Origin: Mesorhizobium jarvisii | Lineage (GTDB): Bacteria; Pseudomonadota; Alphaproteobacteria; Rhizobiales; Rhizobiaceae | DNA: 64,000 nt | NCBI RefSeq assembly: GCF_003601985.1 | Contig: NZ_QZXA01000018.1 | Coordinates: 1-64,000 of the forward strand | Direction: 5' to 3' | Part shown: positions 7,753 through 31,356 of the stretch, piece after piece | Numbering within the stretch: position 1 is the stretch's first letter | How the letters are laid out: each line of letters begins with the position of its first letter | Program-made: the position numbers and the translations under genes | Notes under the pieces: model-generated | Database searches by the model: none | Seen by the model: only the letters and a program-made list of their open reading frames with translations | Told to the model about the DNA's origin: nothing

Positions 7753-7902
7753 TTGGCCGATCTAGGGCAGCGGCCTGGTTACTGGGCAGAACAGTACCGA
7801 CCGCAGGTTTTGGTTTGCCCAAAACTGTTGCATATTTGTCATTCTTGGTCTGACCGACTCCCTGCTAGAGACGTGGTGGGTTTATTGATTAGGGGTTGGG
7901 CT

Positions 7903-23978: not shown

Positions 23979-24416
<438 letters not shown>

Positions 24417-24478
24417 CGCGACCAGCCTTCTAAGAAACGTCATCCATCAAAAAACGTCATCAAACAGGGATACATGAC

Positions 24479-25888
24479 ATGACGACAGCCAAAGACATCA
24501 TGAAGCAGATCAAGGACAACGACGTGAAATTCGTCGACCTGCGCTTCACCGACCCGAAGGGCAAGCTGCAGCACGTGACGATGGATGTCGTGGAGGTCGA
24601 GGAAGACATGTTTGCCGATGGCGTCATGTTCGACGGCTCCTCGATCGCCGGCTGGAAGGCCATCAACGAGTCCGACATGGTGCTGATGCCCGATCCGGAC
24701 ACGGTCCACATGGACCCGTTCTTCGCCCAGTCGACCATGGTCATCCTGTGCGACATCCTCGACCCGGTCTCGGGCGAATCCTACAACCGCGACCCGCGCG
24801 GCACGGCCAAGAAGGCCGAGGCCTACATGAAGTCGGAAGGCATCGGCGACCAGATCTTCGTCGGCCCGGAAGCCGAGTTCTTCGTCTTCGATGACGTCAA
24901 GTACAAGGCCGATCCCTACAACACCGGCTTCAAGCTCGACTCCACCGAACTGCCGTCCAACGACGACACCGACTACGAGACCGGCAATCTCGGCCACCGC
25001 CCGCGCATCAAGGGCGGCTATTTCCCGGTGCCGCCGATCGACAGTGCGCAGGACATGCGCTCAGAGATGCTGACCGTGCTCGCCGAAATGGGCGTGCGCG
25101 TCGAAAAGCATCACCACGAGGTCGCGGCTGCGCAGCACGAACTCGGCATCAAGTTCGACACGCTGGTCCGCAACGCCGACAAGATGCTGATCTACAAGTA
25201 TGTCGTGCACCAGGTCGCCAACGCCTATGGCAAGACGGCCACCTTCATGCCGAAGCCCATCTTCGGCGACAATGGCTCGGGCATGCACGTCCACCAGTCG
25301 ATCTGGAAAGGCGGCAAGCCGACCTTCGCCGGCAATGAATATGCCGGCCTGTCGGAAAGCTGCCTGTTCTACATCGGCGGCATCATCAAGCACGCCAAGG
25401 CGATCAACGCGTTCACCAACCCGCTGACCAACTCCTACAAGCGTCTGGTGCCCGGCTATGAAGCGCCGGTGCTGCTCGCCTACTCCGCGCGCAACCGTTC
25501 GGCCTCCTGCCGCATCCCGTTCGGCTCGTCGCCAAAGGCCAAGCGCGTCGAGGTCCGCTTCCCCGATCCGGGCGCGAACCCTTACCTTGCCTTCGCCGCC
25601 ATGCTGATGGCCGGCCTCGACGGCATCAAGAACAAGATCCACCCCGGCCAGCCGATGGACAAGGACCTCTACGATCTGCCGCCGAAGGAGCTGAAGAAGA
25701 TCCCGACCGTCTGCGGTTCGCTGCGTGAAGCCCTCCAGAGCCTCGACAAGGACCGCGGCTTCCTGAAGGCCGGCGGCGTCTTCGACGACGACCAGATCGA
25801 CAGCTACATCGAACTGAAGATGGCTGAGGTGATGCGCTTCGAAATGACCCCGCATCCGGTCGAATACGACATGTACTATTCGGTGTAA
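24479..25888 (+). CDS. glnA: glutamine synthetase type I
   Basis: Makes glutamine from glutamate, ammonium and ATP as a dodecamer. It has 469 residues. The N-terminal latch has [18 protein letters not shown]; the active site has [21 protein letters not shown] and [11 protein letters not shown]. The adenylylation tyrosine is Y398 in DKDLYDLPP, so it should be under GlnE control, itself governed by GlnB. The second gene of glnBA, followed at 27 bases by a terminator. Confidence 0.98.
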
Positions 25889-25948: not shown

Positions 25949-26584
25949 GCTGTCGTCAATGCGCATCGATGAGCGCGCGAGTGGTCAGCCACGCAAGCGC
26001 GAACACTCTCGCTCGGTTCCAAAGCATCGTTTGATGGCGCGACTTGCCAGCTTCGTGGCCGCCGGCGGAAATCGCAAATGAAGGCTGGTGCGTGGCAGTT
26101 TCGAGCGCGCAATCGAACGCCAGGAGCGAGCGGCGCACTGCCTCAGGCTGCAATGCCCGCTCGTCCGGCGCCCCCGCCAATGCCGTCGTTCAAGAAACCC
26201 CGCCCCGTTCGAACAGCATCGCTTTGGCGTAACCCATGGCCACGAATACGCATGCCGCAGCGTGATCTGTCAACGTCGCCCGACGAATGCATAAATCGCC
26301 GATTTCGATGTATGAACAGAGGCTTATACTGGGGATCGTTGGAGTGCGGATGAGCCGGAACACGCCGTTTTCCGGGCTTTTTCGACGAAGTCGAGAGCGT
26401 ACGACACCAGTGGCGGCAAGCAGCATCAGCCAAAAGCCTCTCCATCCGGCGTATTTGCCCTGGCCTTTTCAACCTGACTTTTTTTGGGGGTATTCGCTTC
26501 GCCGGCCAGCACTGCAAAAAAGAATCACGGCGAAGGCCGGGATTCTCGCAAGGACAGGGCGTCGGAGGGCGACGCCTATCCTGC
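25949..26584. other. degenerate gene-free stretch between glnA and glnII
   Basis: About 635 bases with no frame I would defend. Open frames here on both strands are Arg/Cys/Pro-rich, have no domains and no good ribosome sites. Base composition is more mixed than in neighbouring genes. Just to its right is the tail of a P1-family peptidase gene, so the region is probably decayed coding DNA. A possible LARTG-like peptide of the same family lies in another frame near 26530-26565. Confidence 0.5.
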
Positions 26585-26749
26585 ATGGACGATTTCTACG
26601 CAGCCGTCGTACAGGCGACCGAGGAGGCGGTGCTCAACGCGCTCGTCGCCAACGATGACATGATCGGCCGCGACGGCAACCGGAGCCCTGCTCTGCCCCA
26701 TGCCAAGGTGCTGGCGGCGCTGAAGGCACGTGGGGCTGTCGCCGGTTGA
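26585..26749 (+). pseudogene. C-terminal remnant of a P1-family (DmpA-type) peptidase
   Basis: The 54-residue frame MDDFYAAVVQATEEAVLNAL, then VANDDMIGRDGNRSPALPHA and KVLAALKARGAVAG, stopping at TGA 26747-26749, matches my memory of the C-terminal end of L-aminopeptidase/D-esterase (S58) proteins. The intact enzymes are about 340-370 residues. The catalytic Ser/Asn region should lie far upstream but is absent in this frame, so this is a truncated gene. The frame is still clean over its last 54 codons, so the loss may be recent or only the 5' part was deleted. Confidence 0.7.
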
Positions 26750-26776
26750 GAACGGCAGACGCGCCTCGCAAACACG

Positions 26777-26808
26777 AAAAAGCCCTGGCGTTTCCGCCAG
26801 GGCTTTTT
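26777..26808. terminator. bidirectional terminator downstream of glnII and the peptidase remnant
   Basis: Perfect 14-base arms AAAAAGCCCTGGCG / CGCCAGGGCTTTTT with a four-base loop. The A-run on one side and T-run on the other make it work on both strands. It lies 28 bases after the remnant stop and about 55 bases after the glnII stop. Confidence 0.9.
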
Positions 26809-26861
26809 GTTGTCGAGTTCTGGTCGCGGCGAAGACCTTGCGATCCGCGCCGCGAAAACAA

Positions 26862-27902
26862 TCAGGCGGCGGCCGAGACCTTAGCGTCGGTCGCAACCTG
26901 CGAGATCGTCTTCAGCACCTGCGAGGCGATCTGGTAGGGGTCGCCCTGGGAGTTCGGACGACGGTCCTCCAGATAGCCCTTGTAGTCATTCTTGACGAAG
27001 GAGTGCGGCACGCGGATCGAGGCGCCACGGTCGGCGACGCCATAGCTGAACTTGTTCCACGGCGCGGTCTCGTGCTTGCCGGTCAGGCGCTTGTCGTTGT
27101 CCGGACCGTAGACGGCGATGTGGTCCATCAGGTTCTTGTCGAACTGCGCCATCAGGGCTTCGAAATAGGCCTTGCCGCCGACTTCGCGCATGAACTTGGT
27201 CGAGAAGTTGCAGTGCATGCCGGAGCCGTTCCAGTCGGTGTCGCCGAGCGGCTTGCAGTGGAACTCGATGTCGATGCCGTAAGTCTCGGTCAGACGCAGG
27301 AGCAGGTAGCGCGCCATCCAGATCTGGTCGGCGGCCTTCTTGGAGCCCTTGCCGAAAATCTGGAATTCCCACTGGCCCTTGGCCACTTCGGCGTTGATGC
27401 CTTCGTGGTTGATGCCGGCAGCAAGGCACTGGTCGAGATGCTCTTCGACGATCTTGCGCGCGACGTCGCCGACGTTCTTGTAGCCGACGCCGGTGTAGTA
27501 CGGACCCTGCGGCGCGGGATAACCGCTCTCCGGGAAGCCGAGCGGGCGACCGTCCTTGTAGAAGAAATATTCCTGCTCGAAGCCGAACCAGGCGTCCTCG
27601 TCGTCGAGGATGGTCGCGCGGCTGTTCGATTCATGCGGGGTGACGCCATCGGGCATCATGACCTCGCACATGACGAGAATGCCATTGGTGCGGGCGGGAT
27701 CCGGGTAAAGCGCCACAGGCTTCAACACGCAATCGGAGCTGCGGCCTTCGGCCTGCATGGTCGAGGAACCGTCGAAGCCCCACAGCGGCAGCTGTTCGAG
27801 CGTCGGGAATTCCGCGAATTCCTTGATCTGCGTCTTGCCGCGAAGGTTGGGGACCGGGGTGTAACCATCGAGCCAAATGTACTCGAGCTTGTATTTCGTC
27901 AT
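26862..27902 (-). CDS. glnII: glutamine synthetase type II (eukaryotic type)
   Basis: The second ammonium-assimilating enzyme typical of rhizobia; it is octameric/decameric, heat-labile and not adenylylated. It has 346 residues from MTKYKLEYIWLDGYTPVPNL; the frame extends 42 codons upstream into the promoter and is rejected. GAGAGG precedes the ATG. Family features: PLWGFDGSSTMQAEGRSSD, FGFEQEYFFYKDGRPLGFP, WNGSGMHCNFSTKFMRE and DRGASIRVPHSF. No NLYDLP adenylylation site is present, consistent with GSII. Expression is probably NtrC/sigma-54 dependent given the promoter at 27989-28004. Confidence 0.97.
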   Translation of the reverse strand: MTKYKLEYIWLDGYTPVPNLRGKTQIKEFAEFPTLEQLPLWGFDGSSTMQAEGRSSDCVLKPVALYPDPARTNGILVMCEVMMPDGVTPHESNSRATILDDEDAWFGFEQEYFFYKDGRPLGFPESGYPAPQGPYYTGVGYKNVGDVARKIVEEHLDQCLAAGINHEGINAEVAKGQWEFQIFGKGSKKAADQIWMARYLLLRLTETYGIDIEFHCKPLGDTDWNGSGMHCNFSTKFMREVGGKAYFEALMAQFDKNLMDHIAVYGPDNDKRLTGKHETAPWNKFSYGVADRGASIRVPHSFVKNDYKGYLEDRRPNSQGDPYQIASQVLKTISQVATDAKVSAAA

Positions 27903-27988
27903 TCTAGCCTCTCGTTGCTTGTTCACCGAACACCAAACGGCCTCGACACGCGTCTGCCGTCGGCAGCCGGCGCTGCCGATCCCTACAA

Positions 27989-28004
27989 TGCAATTCATGT
28001 GCCA
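27989..28004 (-). promoter_or_regulatory. sigma-54 (-24/-12) promoter of glnII
   Basis: On the minus strand the sequence reads TGGCACATGAATTGCA, a near-perfect TGGCAC-N5-TTGCA with GG and GC ten bases apart. It ends 87 bases before the glnII ATG. Nitrogen-limited, NtrC-dependent glnII transcription is established in Bradyrhizobium and Sinorhizobium. Confidence 0.88.
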
Positions 28005-28053
28005 CTCCGACTTCGGCGGGTGCGGCAAAATGGCAGGGATATCGCGTCGAATT

Positions 28054-28071
28054 TGCTGAGCCGCCTCAGCA
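28054..28071. promoter_or_regulatory. inverted repeat upstream of the glnII promoter
   Basis: TGCTGAG-CCGC-CTCAGCA is a perfect seven-base inverted repeat about 50-70 bases upstream of the -24 box. It has the TGC-N12-GCA outline expected roughly of an NtrC site (consensus TGC-N11-GCA), so it is a candidate enhancer site, one base off in spacing. Confidence 0.4.
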
Positions 28072-28110
28072 CTGGGTCCAAATCAATCAAACGCGAATTA
28101 TGCATAAATA

Positions 28111-28149
28111 TTAGGCAATTGCTGATCTTTTCGTAGGCATATTGCCTAA
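28111..28149. promoter_or_regulatory. two palindromes 22 bp apart overlapping the promoter of the 63-residue ORF
   Basis: The first element is TTAGGCAATTGCTGA (28111-28125). The second is the perfect palindrome TAGGCA-TAT-TGCCTA (28134-28148). The TAGGCA starts lie at 28112 and 28134, exactly two helical turns apart. The outer halves also form a perfect inverted repeat, TTAGGCAAT / ATTGCCTAA. The right element covers the predicted -35 box. This is the layout of a cooperative dimeric regulator; the protein is unknown. Confidence 0.6.
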
Positions 28150-28170
28150 AGGAATCGCAGGACTTATCTT
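28142..28170 (+). promoter_or_regulatory. predicted promoter of the 63-residue ORF
   Basis: TTGCCT (28142-28147), 17 bases, then TATCTT (28165-28170): four of six matches in each box with ideal spacing. The start of transcription would be near 28177, giving a ~40-base leader with a good ribosome site. Confidence 0.5.
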
Positions 28171-28218
28171 GTAGGAAAGCTGAATCGACAAGCTCCTGAA
28201 AAAGAAAGGAGACCGCCC

Positions 28219-28410
28219 ATGGAAGTCGTCCCCTCCCGTCCGTCGGCAAAAATTCTGATGTTCCCTCTGGCAGCGCGCAAATCTGCCTCAAATTTAGGCG
28301 CAAAGGCGAAATTCGCGGCAGAGGTCGCCTCGTTGCGCTACACGTACGCCGATTTTGACGGCTGGTATCACGAGGCGGCCATCGAGGAAGATAATCAGCC
28401 AAAGAGCTGA
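28219..28410 (+). CDS. 63-residue protein of unknown function, divergent from glnII
   Basis: The ATG at 28219 follows AAAGGAGA (28205-28212), a strong ribosome site with good spacing. The protein begins MEVVPSRPSAKILMFPLAAR and continues SASNLGAKAKFAAEVASLRY and TYADFDGWYHEAAIEEDNQP. It has a basic, hydrophobic N-terminal half and an acidic C-terminal half; there is no signal peptide, membrane segment or known domain. The promoter with its palindromes and the terminator at 28437-28470 mark it as a genuine single-gene unit. Whether it relates to nitrogen control is only suggested by its position. Confidence 0.65.
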   Translation: MEVVPSRPSAKILMFPLAARKSASNLGAKAKFAAEVASLRYTYADFDGWYHEAAIEEDNQPKS

Positions 28411-28436
28411 TCCGCTTCTTCGGGTCTCAGACATGG

Positions 28437-28470
28437 AAAAGCCCGGCGTGAGCGATCACGCCGGGCTTTC
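28437..28470. terminator. bidirectional terminator between the 63-residue ORF and the MFS gene
   Basis: AAAA plus a perfect eleven-base stem GCCCGGCGTGA / TCACGCCGGGC with a four-base loop is followed by TTTCTCTT. It lies 26 bases past the plus-strand ORF and about 22 bases past the minus-strand MFS gene stop. Confidence 0.85.
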
Positions 28471-28491
28471 TCTTGGCCGATGACGGCTAGG

Positions 28492-30381
28492 CTATTCCTT
28501 GCCGTGTAGGTCGGTGCCAAGCGTATCCTTGACGAAGATCATGCCGATGATCAGCGTCATCGCCGCGATCACCACCGGATACCACAGACCATAGTAGATA
28601 TCGCCCTTGTAGGCGCTGAGCGCGAAGACTGTTGCCGGCAACAGACCGCCGAACCAGCCATTGCCGATATGATAGGGCAGCGACATGCCGGTGTAACGAA
28701 TGCGGGTCGGGAACATCTCGACCAGGATCGCCGCGATCGGCCCGTAGACCATGGTCACGAACAGGACCAGGATGAACAGGATGCCGATCGTCATCGGCCA
28801 GTTCACGGCGGCCGGATCGGCGAACATGGCGAAGGCACCGCCGCCCGGTATGTTGTAGACGGTGACCTCTGGCGCGCCGGCGGCCTCCTCCGACGTCAAC
28901 AACTTGTCCTTGACCGCCTGATCGATCGGCACCGCGGTCTTTTCGCCGCCGCGAATGGCAGCCGCGTCGAGCTTGAGTTCAGGATTGGCCGCGACGAAGG
29001 CGTCGAGCTTCTGGTCCGCTACCTTGATCGCCGCACGCTTGAGCGGATACCCGCCGTCCTGCAGCGACATGTTGACCGCCTTGACGAAGGCCGCGTCCTT
29101 GGCCTTGGCCTGATCGCCAGCGGCGACCGCGTCGTAGGACGACACCGTCTCGTTGCCGATCTTGACGGTAGCAGCCGTACCGGCTGCCGCCGTCGATACC
29201 ACGTCATAGGGAACCGAGTTCTTGGTCAGGAACGAAGTCGCGATGTCGCATGACGTCGTGAACTTGGCGGTGCCGACCGGGTTGAACTGGAACTTGCAGT
29301 CGCCGGGTGCTGCCGTGACCGTTGCCTTTGTATTCAGCTGCGCCTTGGCGAGTGCCGGATTGGCGGCCCAGGTCAATGCCTTGAACAACGGGAAGGTGCA
29401 GACGATGGCGAGCGCAAGGCCAGCCATGATGATCGGCTTGCGGCCGATCTTGTCGGAGAGCCAGCCGAACACGACGAAGAAGATCGAGCCGAGTGCCAAC
29501 GCGATCGCGATCATGATGTTGACCGACTGCGCATCGACTTTCAGTACGTTCTGCAGGAAGAACAGCGCGTAGAACTGGCCATTGTACCAGACGACGGCCT
29601 GTCCAGCAGTGAGGCCAAGCAGCGCCAGCAGTGCGATCTTGGCGTTCTTCCACTGACCGAAGGCTTCCGAAAGCGGTGCCTTCGAGCCCTTACCTTCGTC
29701 CTTCATCTTCTGGAAGGTCGGAGACTCCGAGAGAGACAGTCGAATCCAGATCGAGACGGCGAGCAGCACGAAGGAGACGATAAACGGAATACGCCAGCCC
29801 CAAGCGGCGTAGGTTTCCTTGCTCAAGGAGCCCTGAACAATCAGAATGACGATCAGCGACAGGAACAGGCCAAGTGTCGCCGTCGTCTGGATCCACGACG
29901 TGTAGAAGCCGCGACGGTCGTCAGGCGCGTGCTCAGCGACATAGGTCGCCGCACCGCCATATTCGCCGCCGAGGGCCAAACCCTGCAACATGCGTAGCAC
30001 GATCAGGATCACCGGAGCCGCGATACCCAAGGTCGCATAACCGGGCAGCAAGCCGACCAGGAAGGTCGACAGACCCATGATCGTCATGGTGACGAGAAAG
30101 GTATATTTGCGGCCGACGAGGTCACCGATACGGCCAAACACCAGGGCGCCGAACGGGCGGACGAGAAAACCGGCGGCAAAAGCCAGCAGCGCGAAGATGT
30201 TGCGCGTCGCCTCCGGAATGGTCGGACTGAAAAAGGTCGAGCCAATGAAGGCCGCCAATGAACCGTAGAGATAGAAATCGTACCATTCGAAAACGGTGCC
30301 GAGTGAGGAAGCGAAGATGACCTTCTTCTCTTCCCGAGTCATGCCGCGGCTCGTTCTGCCGGCGGTCGATGCCATTGCCAT
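28492..30381 (-). CDS. MFS transporter, metabolite:H+ symporter type, with large inserted domain
   Basis: 629 residues from the ATG at 30381, preceded by GGGAGGA; the open frame further upstream is not needed. The MHS signature is clear: FEWYDFYLYGSLAAFIGSTF, LVRPFGALVFGRIGDLVGRK, RMLQGLALGGEYGGAATYVA and GWLSDKIGRKPIIMAG. Twelve membrane segments are expected, but residues ~337-525 form a soluble insert (starting ANPALAKAQLNTKATVTAAP, with FNPVGTAKFTTSCDIA) before the last helices (NWPMTIGILFILVLFVTMVY). I recall similar inserts in some ~550-residue relatives. The substrate is probably a small organic acid or osmolyte; it cannot be named. Confidence 0.85.
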   Translation of the reverse strand: MAMASTAGRTSRGMTREEKKVIFASSLGTVFEWYDFYLYGSLAAFIGSTFFSPTIPEATRNIFALLAFAAGFLVRPFGALVFGRIGDLVGRKYTFLVTMTIMGLSTFLVGLLPGYATLGIAAPVILIVLRMLQGLALGGEYGGAATYVAEHAPDDRRGFYTSWIQTTATLGLFLSLIVILIVQGSLSKETYAAWGWRIPFIVSFVLLAVSIWIRLSLSESPTFQKMKDEGKGSKAPLSEAFGQWKNAKIALLALLGLTAGQAVVWYNGQFYALFFLQNVLKVDAQSVNIMIAIALALGSIFFVVFGWLSDKIGRKPIIMAGLALAIVCTFPLFKALTWAANPALAKAQLNTKATVTAAPGDCKFQFNPVGTAKFTTSCDIATSFLTKNSVPYDVVSTAAAGTAATVKIGNETVSSYDAVAAGDQAKAKDAAFVKAVNMSLQDGGYPLKRAAIKVADQKLDAFVAANPELKLDAAAIRGGEKTAVPIDQAVKDKLLTSEEAAGAPEVTVYNIPGGGAFAMFADPAAVNWPMTIGILFILVLFVTMVYGPIAAILVEMFPTRIRYTGMSLPYHIGNGWFGGLLPATVFALSAYKGDIYYGLWYPVVIAAMTLIIGMIFVKDTLGTDLHGKE

Positions 30382-30564
30382 TGAGTTGTCCTCCCGTGAG
30401 ACGCTGTCCTCGATGGCGGGCGCCAGTGTCAGCGCTCTCCTCCGAACGCGGACTCGGAAATGCCGGGCCATCACGGGAAAAATGACAGAAAGCGCCCGCC
30501 GACGGCAGAGCGACGATGGGATTATGACTTTGGTATTAGGTGCGGCGCGGCAATCGCCGCAGGG

Positions 30565-31356
30565 TCAACCCTTGAGCGCCTCGAGAAGGCTGACGGCAGC
30601 CATCATATCGCGTCTGCGGGCGGCACGGCGCGCGACCGCTTCGGCGTCCTGCCCCCAATGCTCGATCTGCCAGTCCTCGTCGACATGGCCGGCGGCCCAG
30701 GCAGTCTCGGCATCGAGCTCGCCGAAATCGACCGCCAGCGCCAGCAGCGCCGAACCCGTCAGCGAGGTCATGAGGTGGATGGCGGCCAACCGCAGCGGCT
30801 CGGCGCGCTGATTGAGATGACTGCCCAGAACGGCGATCGTCTCGCGTGGCTGCTCGACATGGATGATGCCCTCGGCAAGGTTGAAGCGAGCCCCCAATGT
30901 CGTGCGCGCCCAATCGATGACCGGATCCCACTGCTCGTTCTGCCGCGCGACCAGCCCTTGGGGAGCGTCGGCGCGGTAACAGAGCAGATCCGATGAGGCA
31001 AACCGCAGTATGTCTTCCAGCACCGCCTGCGGATCGTTGGCAACGCCGTCGATGGTAGTGTTGACCAGGCGCATCACCGGCATCGTCACCGGATTGATCG
31101 TCTCGCCCTGTTCCGCGAACTCGCCTGCAACCAGCACTGCCGCCGCCTCGGTCGGCAGCGCCAGCAGCGCCTTGCCCGGCGTGCGCACCGGCTTGCCGTC
31201 GAGATGCACGGCAAAACCTCCCTCTATCGGCACAACCGAAGCGGTTTTGTAGAAGCGCTTGGGCAGCGGCGTCTTCATCTGAATCTGGGCGCGGCGGACC
31301 GGATCCGGATCGGAAAGATACTTGCCCGCTTCGAGGTCGTTGAGGATGTCACGCAT
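30565..31356 (-). CDS. ATP12-family F1-ATPase assembly chaperone
   Basis: 263 residues. Alphaproteobacterial ATP12 homologues help the F1 alpha subunit fold before assembly. Family features: KRFYKTASVVPIEGGFAVHL, LDGKPVRTPGKALLALPTEA, SSDLLCYRADAPQGLVARQN, WDPVIDWARTTLGARF and the C-terminal WGQDAEAVARRAARRRDM. It is the last gene of a tight set rluC-like - DMT - ATP12, with 12 bases after the transporter gene. Confidence 0.9.
   Translation of the reverse strand: MRDILNDLEAGKYLSDPDPVRRAQIQMKTPLPKRFYKTASVVPIEGGFAVHLDGKPVRTPGKALLALPTEAAAVLVAGEFAEQGETINPVTMPVMRLVNTTIDGVANDPQAVLEDILRFASSDLLCYRADAPQGLVARQNEQWDPVIDWARTTLGARFNLAEGIIHVEQPRETIAVLGSHLNQRAEPLRLAAIHLMTSLTGSALLALAVDFGELDAETAWAAGHVDEDWQIEHWGQDAEAVARRAARRRDMMAAVSLLEALKG

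Follow-up and report, generated by a model that had tools for sequence, protein, structure and literature searches.

Organisation of the gstI-glnII locus

In the window (the whole stretch of 64,000 nucleotides of Mesorhizobium jarvisii DNA analysed here), a gene of 63 codons on the plus strand (28219–28410) lies divergent from glnII on the minus strand (26862–27902), which encodes a glutamine synthetase II of 346 aa, with 316 bp between the two genes. From its match to the DUF2735 profile (PF10931) and its neighbourhood, the small gene is a probable glutamine synthetase translation inhibitor, gstI, with glnII as its presumed target. The glnII product matched PF00120 and PF03951, and its best NCBIfam match was gln_syn_GlnII (398 bits, below the cut-off of 500); since this cut-off was reached by none of the genomes in our order and genus samples, the name glnII is based on best hit, length and domains. 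Positions 24078–25888, about 1 kb from glnII, hold a PII gene and a glnA-like ORF (by eye), and both glutamine synthetases and PII are neighbours in the window.

We aligned the intergenic region of the window with those of 49 other Mesorhizobium loci (50 loci in all, two Hyphomicrobium loci being left aside). Sequence and conservation point to a sigma-70-type promoter for gstI on the plus strand (28142–28170), with a -35 box TTGCCT (28142–28147), a spacer of 17 bases and a -10 box TATCTT (28165–28170); the -35 box reads TTGCCT in 46 of the 50 loci and TTGCTT in the other four, and the proposed promoter was absent from the list of the promoter scanner. It is followed by a putative Shine-Dalgarno sequence, AAAGGAGA (28205–28212, plus strand). 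On the glnII side, motif conservation identifies a sigma-54-type promoter, GTGGCACATGAATTGC on the minus strand (27990–28005), in which TGGCA(C/T)-N5-TTGC is kept in 50/50 aligned loci and the stricter TGGCAC-N5-TTGC in 26/50 (25/49 besides the window).

Downstream of gstI, a terminator-like hairpin (28438–28469), recognised by its fold energy, separates the gene from a convergent ORF of the ORF list, transporter-like by eye (28492–30474, minus strand). The hairpin is strong on both strands (-28.4 and -28.3 kcal/mol on plus and minus, z -6.2 and -6.8) and was also detected as an inverted repeat, so that the strong terminator claimed in an earlier note on this DNA holds as far as the hairpin goes, but not as a scanner-listed terminator: the one match of the terminator scanner was 28472–28491, and the hairpin was not listed, presumably because few T follow it. 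The other elements that the earlier note had named are all present (TAGGCA at 28112 and 28134, the -35 box, 17-base spacer and -10 box, AAAGGAGA, the 63-codon ORF and the divergent glnII), and its picture of a self-contained unit is borne out by a real small gene with its own promoter-like sequence, divergent from glnII and very probably tightly regulated.

The small ORF belongs to the GstI family

The protein had been called uncharacterised, a description that no longer applies, as it belongs to the DUF2735/GstI family, which also contains the annotated gstI of Rhizobium leguminosarum. It matched Pfam DUF2735 (PF10931) with an E value of 8.7e-11 and 42.7 bits, above the gathering cut-off of 25, while an NCBIfam search with it gave zero matches; a second, weak Pfam match, NO_synthase, scored E 0.085, below cut-off, and was taken as chance. 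Plasmid pSK03 of R. leguminosarum strain BIHB 1148 carries a 63-aa gene at the corresponding place, whose annotation reads "glutamine synthetase translation inhibitor GstI"; this gene scored 63.8 bits against DUF2735, and the copy on pSymB of Sinorhizobium meliloti scored 69.6 bits. BLASTP of the window protein against the R. leguminosarum GstI returned zero alignments, so that its identity as GstI depends on the family profile and the neighbourhood; on these grounds the ORF is a member of an already described family of small inhibitors of glutamine synthetase II (GSII) production. The R. leguminosarum gene was reportedly described by Spinosa et al. in 2000 and Napolitani et al. in 2004.

Relatives of the small protein in named genomes numbered 51 (49 from Mesorhizobium, 2 from Hyphomicrobium; best identity 94%), and the codon conservation that the earlier note had proposed to look for in them was present. 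In 49 comparisons with the window as reference, differences at codon positions 1, 2 and 3 numbered 449, 269 and 907, and codon differences comprised 578 synonymous and 618 non-synonymous changes, as raw counts rather than a formal dN/dS. Judged by the third-position excess of differences, the small ORF is a real protein-coding gene under purifying selection. Six residues (A10, F15, P16, Y50, H51 and A54) were invariant in 42 aligned sequences from several families. The AlphaFold model predicted helices at residues 23–40 and 49–58 with low confidence (mean pLDDT 67.6, pTM 0.25), and Foldseek of this model against the PDB listed zero matches, which leaves the structure uninformative on the mechanism of GstI. 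Both the kind of gene and its name are known already, and in this respect the finding is mostly ordinary; a false unknown is removed from the list, and the NtrC-like sites that could be mutated in Mesorhizobium are given exactly below.

DUF2735 and glnII occur together across the order

In an order-wide sample of 199 genomes, DUF2735 was found in 36 and glnII (counted at E 1e-60 or better) in 37, and all 36 DUF2735 genomes carried both (Fisher p about 7e-39, phylogeny ignored). The two genes were close and divergent in 35 of these 36 genomes: all 30 loci that were fetched were divergent and close, and five of the other six were so by coordinates. A genus sample of 99 genomes, overlapping with the order sample in some genomes including that of the window, held DUF2735 in 85 and glnII in 84, with both in 84 and neither in 14. 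Within the 49 Mesorhizobium loci, the start of glnII lay 307–317 bp from gstI on the opposite strand in 49/49.

Three genomes departed from this pattern. G174 carries DUF2735 on another contig than glnII (locus L106, G174:C1:526400-527600), and is the one DUF2735 genome of the 36 in the order sample in which the two genes are unlinked. G117 (locus L104, G117:C1:2048100-2049400) is the sole glnII genome of the 37 without detectable DUF2735, which was found neither in the genome nor in the fetched 1.3 kb at the start of glnII. In the genus sample, G232 has DUF2735 and zero glnII matches.

Conserved TGC-N11-GCA sites lie between the genes

We scanned positions 28041–28189 for inverted pairs, combining 64 trinucleotides with 21 spacers (0–20) at a threshold of at least 40 of the 50 loci. 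Six inverted pairs reached it, and TGC-N11-GCA alone did so at two places, the other five, GCA-N3-TGC among them, at one each. Site A (TGCATAAATATTAGGCA, 28101–28117) is kept in 48/50 loci and site C (TGCCTAAAGGAATCGCA, 28143–28159) in 49/50, and in all 47 loci that hold both they are 42 bp apart. Both have an A/T-rich centre (7 or more of 11 bases) and are proposed NtrC sites. Site C begins within the -35 box of gstI, covering this box and most of the spacer; counted from the inferred glnII start, site A is about 130 bp and site C about 170 bp upstream, a distance from the sigma-54 promoter that suits an enhancer. Between them, a weakly supported, degenerate middle site may be present (site B, TGATCTTTTCGTAGGCA, 28123–28139), one mismatch away from TGC-N11-GCA; its TGATCTTTT is nearly invariant, and exact, T-rich matches (TGCTTTTTTACTAGGCA) occur in three loci (L076, L079 and L084).

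Enrichment of the motif extended over the order. In 32 gstI-glnII regions, four of them from Mesorhizobium (that of the window included) and two from Hyphomicrobium, we counted 56 exact TGC-N11-GCA, where first-order Markov copies gave an expectation of 9.6 (at most 23 in any of 500 copies), the related genomes among them being non-independent; other spacers gave 1–19 matches in the same regions. An exact site lay between the genes in 28/32 regions and an A/T-rich one in 19/32, several of the order-wide sites being GC-rich and distant from gstI. Elsewhere in the genome of the window, A/T-rich sites were also found upstream of glnK and of a presumed dusB-ntrBC operon, named from an ntrC match and ORFs read by eye, and three exact sites, none A/T-rich, upstream of glnB.

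Across the 64 kb window there were 24 exact TGC-N11-GCA, of which three carried 7 or more A/T in the centre, including the two at gstI-glnII. The third, at 7816–7832, lies ahead of what appears by eye to be the start of a gene for an exported protein. A looser pattern gave five strand matches at four places in the window against 1.4 expected, a number reached by 3/100 shuffles, so that the case is carried by conservation and not by the window count. Besides its match here, the site-A-like pattern TGCNNAAATNNTNNGCA had four in the rest of the genome; one of these, C2:21599, overlaps the end of an ORF and was rejected as a target. On the sequence of the sites, their regulator is very probably NtrC itself.

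The palindromes are probably seams between neighbouring sites

The earlier note had read two TAGGCA palindromes as the regulatory units of the small gene. Palindrome 2 (TAGGCA-TAT-TGCCTA, 28134–28148) joins the right end of site B to the left end of site C, and palindrome 1 (28112–28125) joins the right end of site A to the sequence that runs up to where site B starts. Upstream of the orthologues neither was conserved in most loci: the arms of palindrome 2, perfect in the window, are perfect in 23/50, and palindrome 1, self-complementary at 10/14 positions in the window, reaches 10/14 in 4/50. What is conserved instead is TGC-N11-GCA, and with it GCA-N3-TGC, the seam of sites B and C, in 47/50 loci. 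Allowing at most one mismatch, palindrome 2 had one match in the window (0.05 expected; 5/100 shuffles had one); it had one exact match in the 6.6 Mb genome, and with one mismatch allowed it recurred at 6 places elsewhere, as often as a control pattern (6). With its arms unconserved and no second exact copy in the genome, the palindrome was rejected as an operator, and both palindromes would be seams between neighbouring 17-bp sites of TGC-N11-GCA type, misdrawn as operator units.

The glnII leader as a candidate region for GstI action

The glnII leader (27903–27950, minus strand) is a candidate region for the action of GstI. Just upstream of the start codon, AAGCAACGAGAGG was invariant in 11 aligned Mesorhizobium leaders. 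The consensus fold, computed from 11 of the 50 leaders, was weak (14 pairs, covariation term 0.11). GAGAG occurred in the last 48 bases before the glnII start in 24/32 leaders and 9/12 groups, above 2000 shuffles and as a ribosome-binding site would, and TCATCA was found in 3/12 groups. These leader motifs were judged too thin to be taken as the GstI target.

One array may control both genes

Published work on related systems bears on these sites. According to excerpts of PMC10746234, TGC-N11-GCA with an A/T-rich centre is the NtrC motif, supported at nfeR1 by gel shift, footprint and repression, and is identifiable in the glnII promoters of several rhizobia. Passages of a Caulobacter preprint (PMC10274813) give no motif letters. 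In passages of both PMC8829014 and PMC3596328, gstI is presented as a translational inhibitor of GSII that lies upstream of glnII and is lower at low nitrogen; those of PMC8829014 add that the two genes are adjacent and divergent. Low nitrogen repressed gstI four-fold in S. meliloti with phosphate sufficient, the nitrogen effect depending on phosphate (PMC8829014, in part). Excerpts of PMC3596328 report a 3-fold repression at low nitrogen (P 0.07), which persisted in a glnD mutant (2.6-fold, P 0.1), and repression in a glnB glnK mutant, where NtrC is always phosphorylated in the authors' model. Inputs to gstI other than NtrC are likely, to judge from the P value of 0.07, the glnD mutant and the phosphate dependence in S. 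meliloti. A site over the gstI -35 box is undescribed in the passages of PMC8829014, PMC3596328 and PMC10746234 considered here.

Since site C starts in the gstI -35 box and the sites are upstream of the glnII start, phosphorylated NtrC should switch glnII on and gstI off together. We consider it likely that the divergent pair is controlled in this way from one array. The family, the pairing, the sites and their geometry are observed here; the function of GstI, the drop of gstI at low nitrogen and the NtrC motif are carried over by analogy with the systems above, and from these we infer NtrC binding at this locus and direct repression. When nitrogen is plentiful, GstI would be made and would block translation of the glnII mRNA. 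When nitrogen is low, phosphorylated NtrC would bind the phased array at sites A and C, and perhaps B. From there it would serve the sigma-54 promoter of glnII as an enhancer; on site C it would keep RNA polymerase off gstI because this site spans the -35 box and the greater part of the spacer. The repression of gstI in the S. meliloti glnB glnK mutant, as given in those excerpts, fits this model.

It is also conceivable, if rather unlikely, that the array is an enhancer of glnII only and that gstI falls at low nitrogen by another route, without direct repression by NtrC. The distance of the sites from the sigma-54 promoter is indeed normal for an enhancer, and the S. meliloti repression in the excerpts cited was phosphate-dependent and outlasted the loss of glnD; yet site C starts in the gstI -35 box, as does by eye the corresponding R. 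leguminosarum site, NtrC represses through the same motif at nfeR1 (in the part of that study cited), and the glnB glnK mutant showed repression of gstI (in the excerpts concerned).

Control of gstI by a dedicated, unknown repressor acting on the TAGGCA palindrome pair would account for the perfect arms of palindrome 2, for its uniqueness in the genome, for its position on the -35 box and for the conservation of GCA-N3-TGC. This core, however, arises from the adjacent ends of sites B and C, the arms themselves are unconserved, and one-mismatch copies are no commoner in the genome than those of the control pattern, which makes such a repressor very unlikely. Less credence still attaches to an ORF that acts through its RNA and not its protein, an idea to which the shortness of the ORF and its poor structure model lend themselves: the codon-position bias and the six invariant residues argue for a protein, gstI does not overlap glnII, and there were zero Rfam matches at the gathering score in 26000–30600. 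Control of both genes by NtrC from the shared array thus remains our preferred reading.

The tight pairing of DUF2735 with glnII, together with the fixed geometry of the sites, is the most useful part of this result. The pairing (36/37 glnII genomes in the order sample and 84/84 in the genus sample) makes it plausible that DUF2735 proteins are GstI throughout and that GSII is generally controlled at translation, beyond a few model rhizobia. For the order as a whole, we lean slightly towards a picture in which DUF2735 accompanies glnII almost obligately as a divergent partner, one phased NtrC array is both enhancer for the enzyme and operator for its inhibitor, and control by GstI is an ancestral part of GSII regulation rather than a trait of few rhizobia.

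Comparison with known systems

The promoter of the S. meliloti sRNA NfeR1 has, like this array, TGC-N11-GCA with an A/T-rich centre; in the passages of PMC10746234 cited here, it carries a sigma-70 signature and is repressed by NtrC. It differs, on the same passages, in that its footprint extends from -95 to -121, whereas at this locus site C covers the -35 box and the opposite side has a sigma-54 promoter. The S. meliloti gstI on pSymB shares with the window gene the DUF2735 family and, as described in two transcriptome studies, the divergence from glnII and a lower level at low nitrogen. In contrast to the window, the stretch searched there held one exact TGC-N11-GCA, at -112, and near the gstI promoter there were zero exact sites and, by eye, a one-mismatch copy. 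R. leguminosarum gstI is also of 63 aa, of the DUF2735 family and divergent from a glutamine synthetase gene. About 430 bp separate the genes there against 316 bp here, and the main sites are 20 bp apart against 42 bp, but a TGC-N11-GCA lies at -75 from the start codon, against -76 in the window, and this site, by eye, starts within a TTGCAT-17-CTATGT pair just as site C starts in the -35 box of the M. jarvisii gene.
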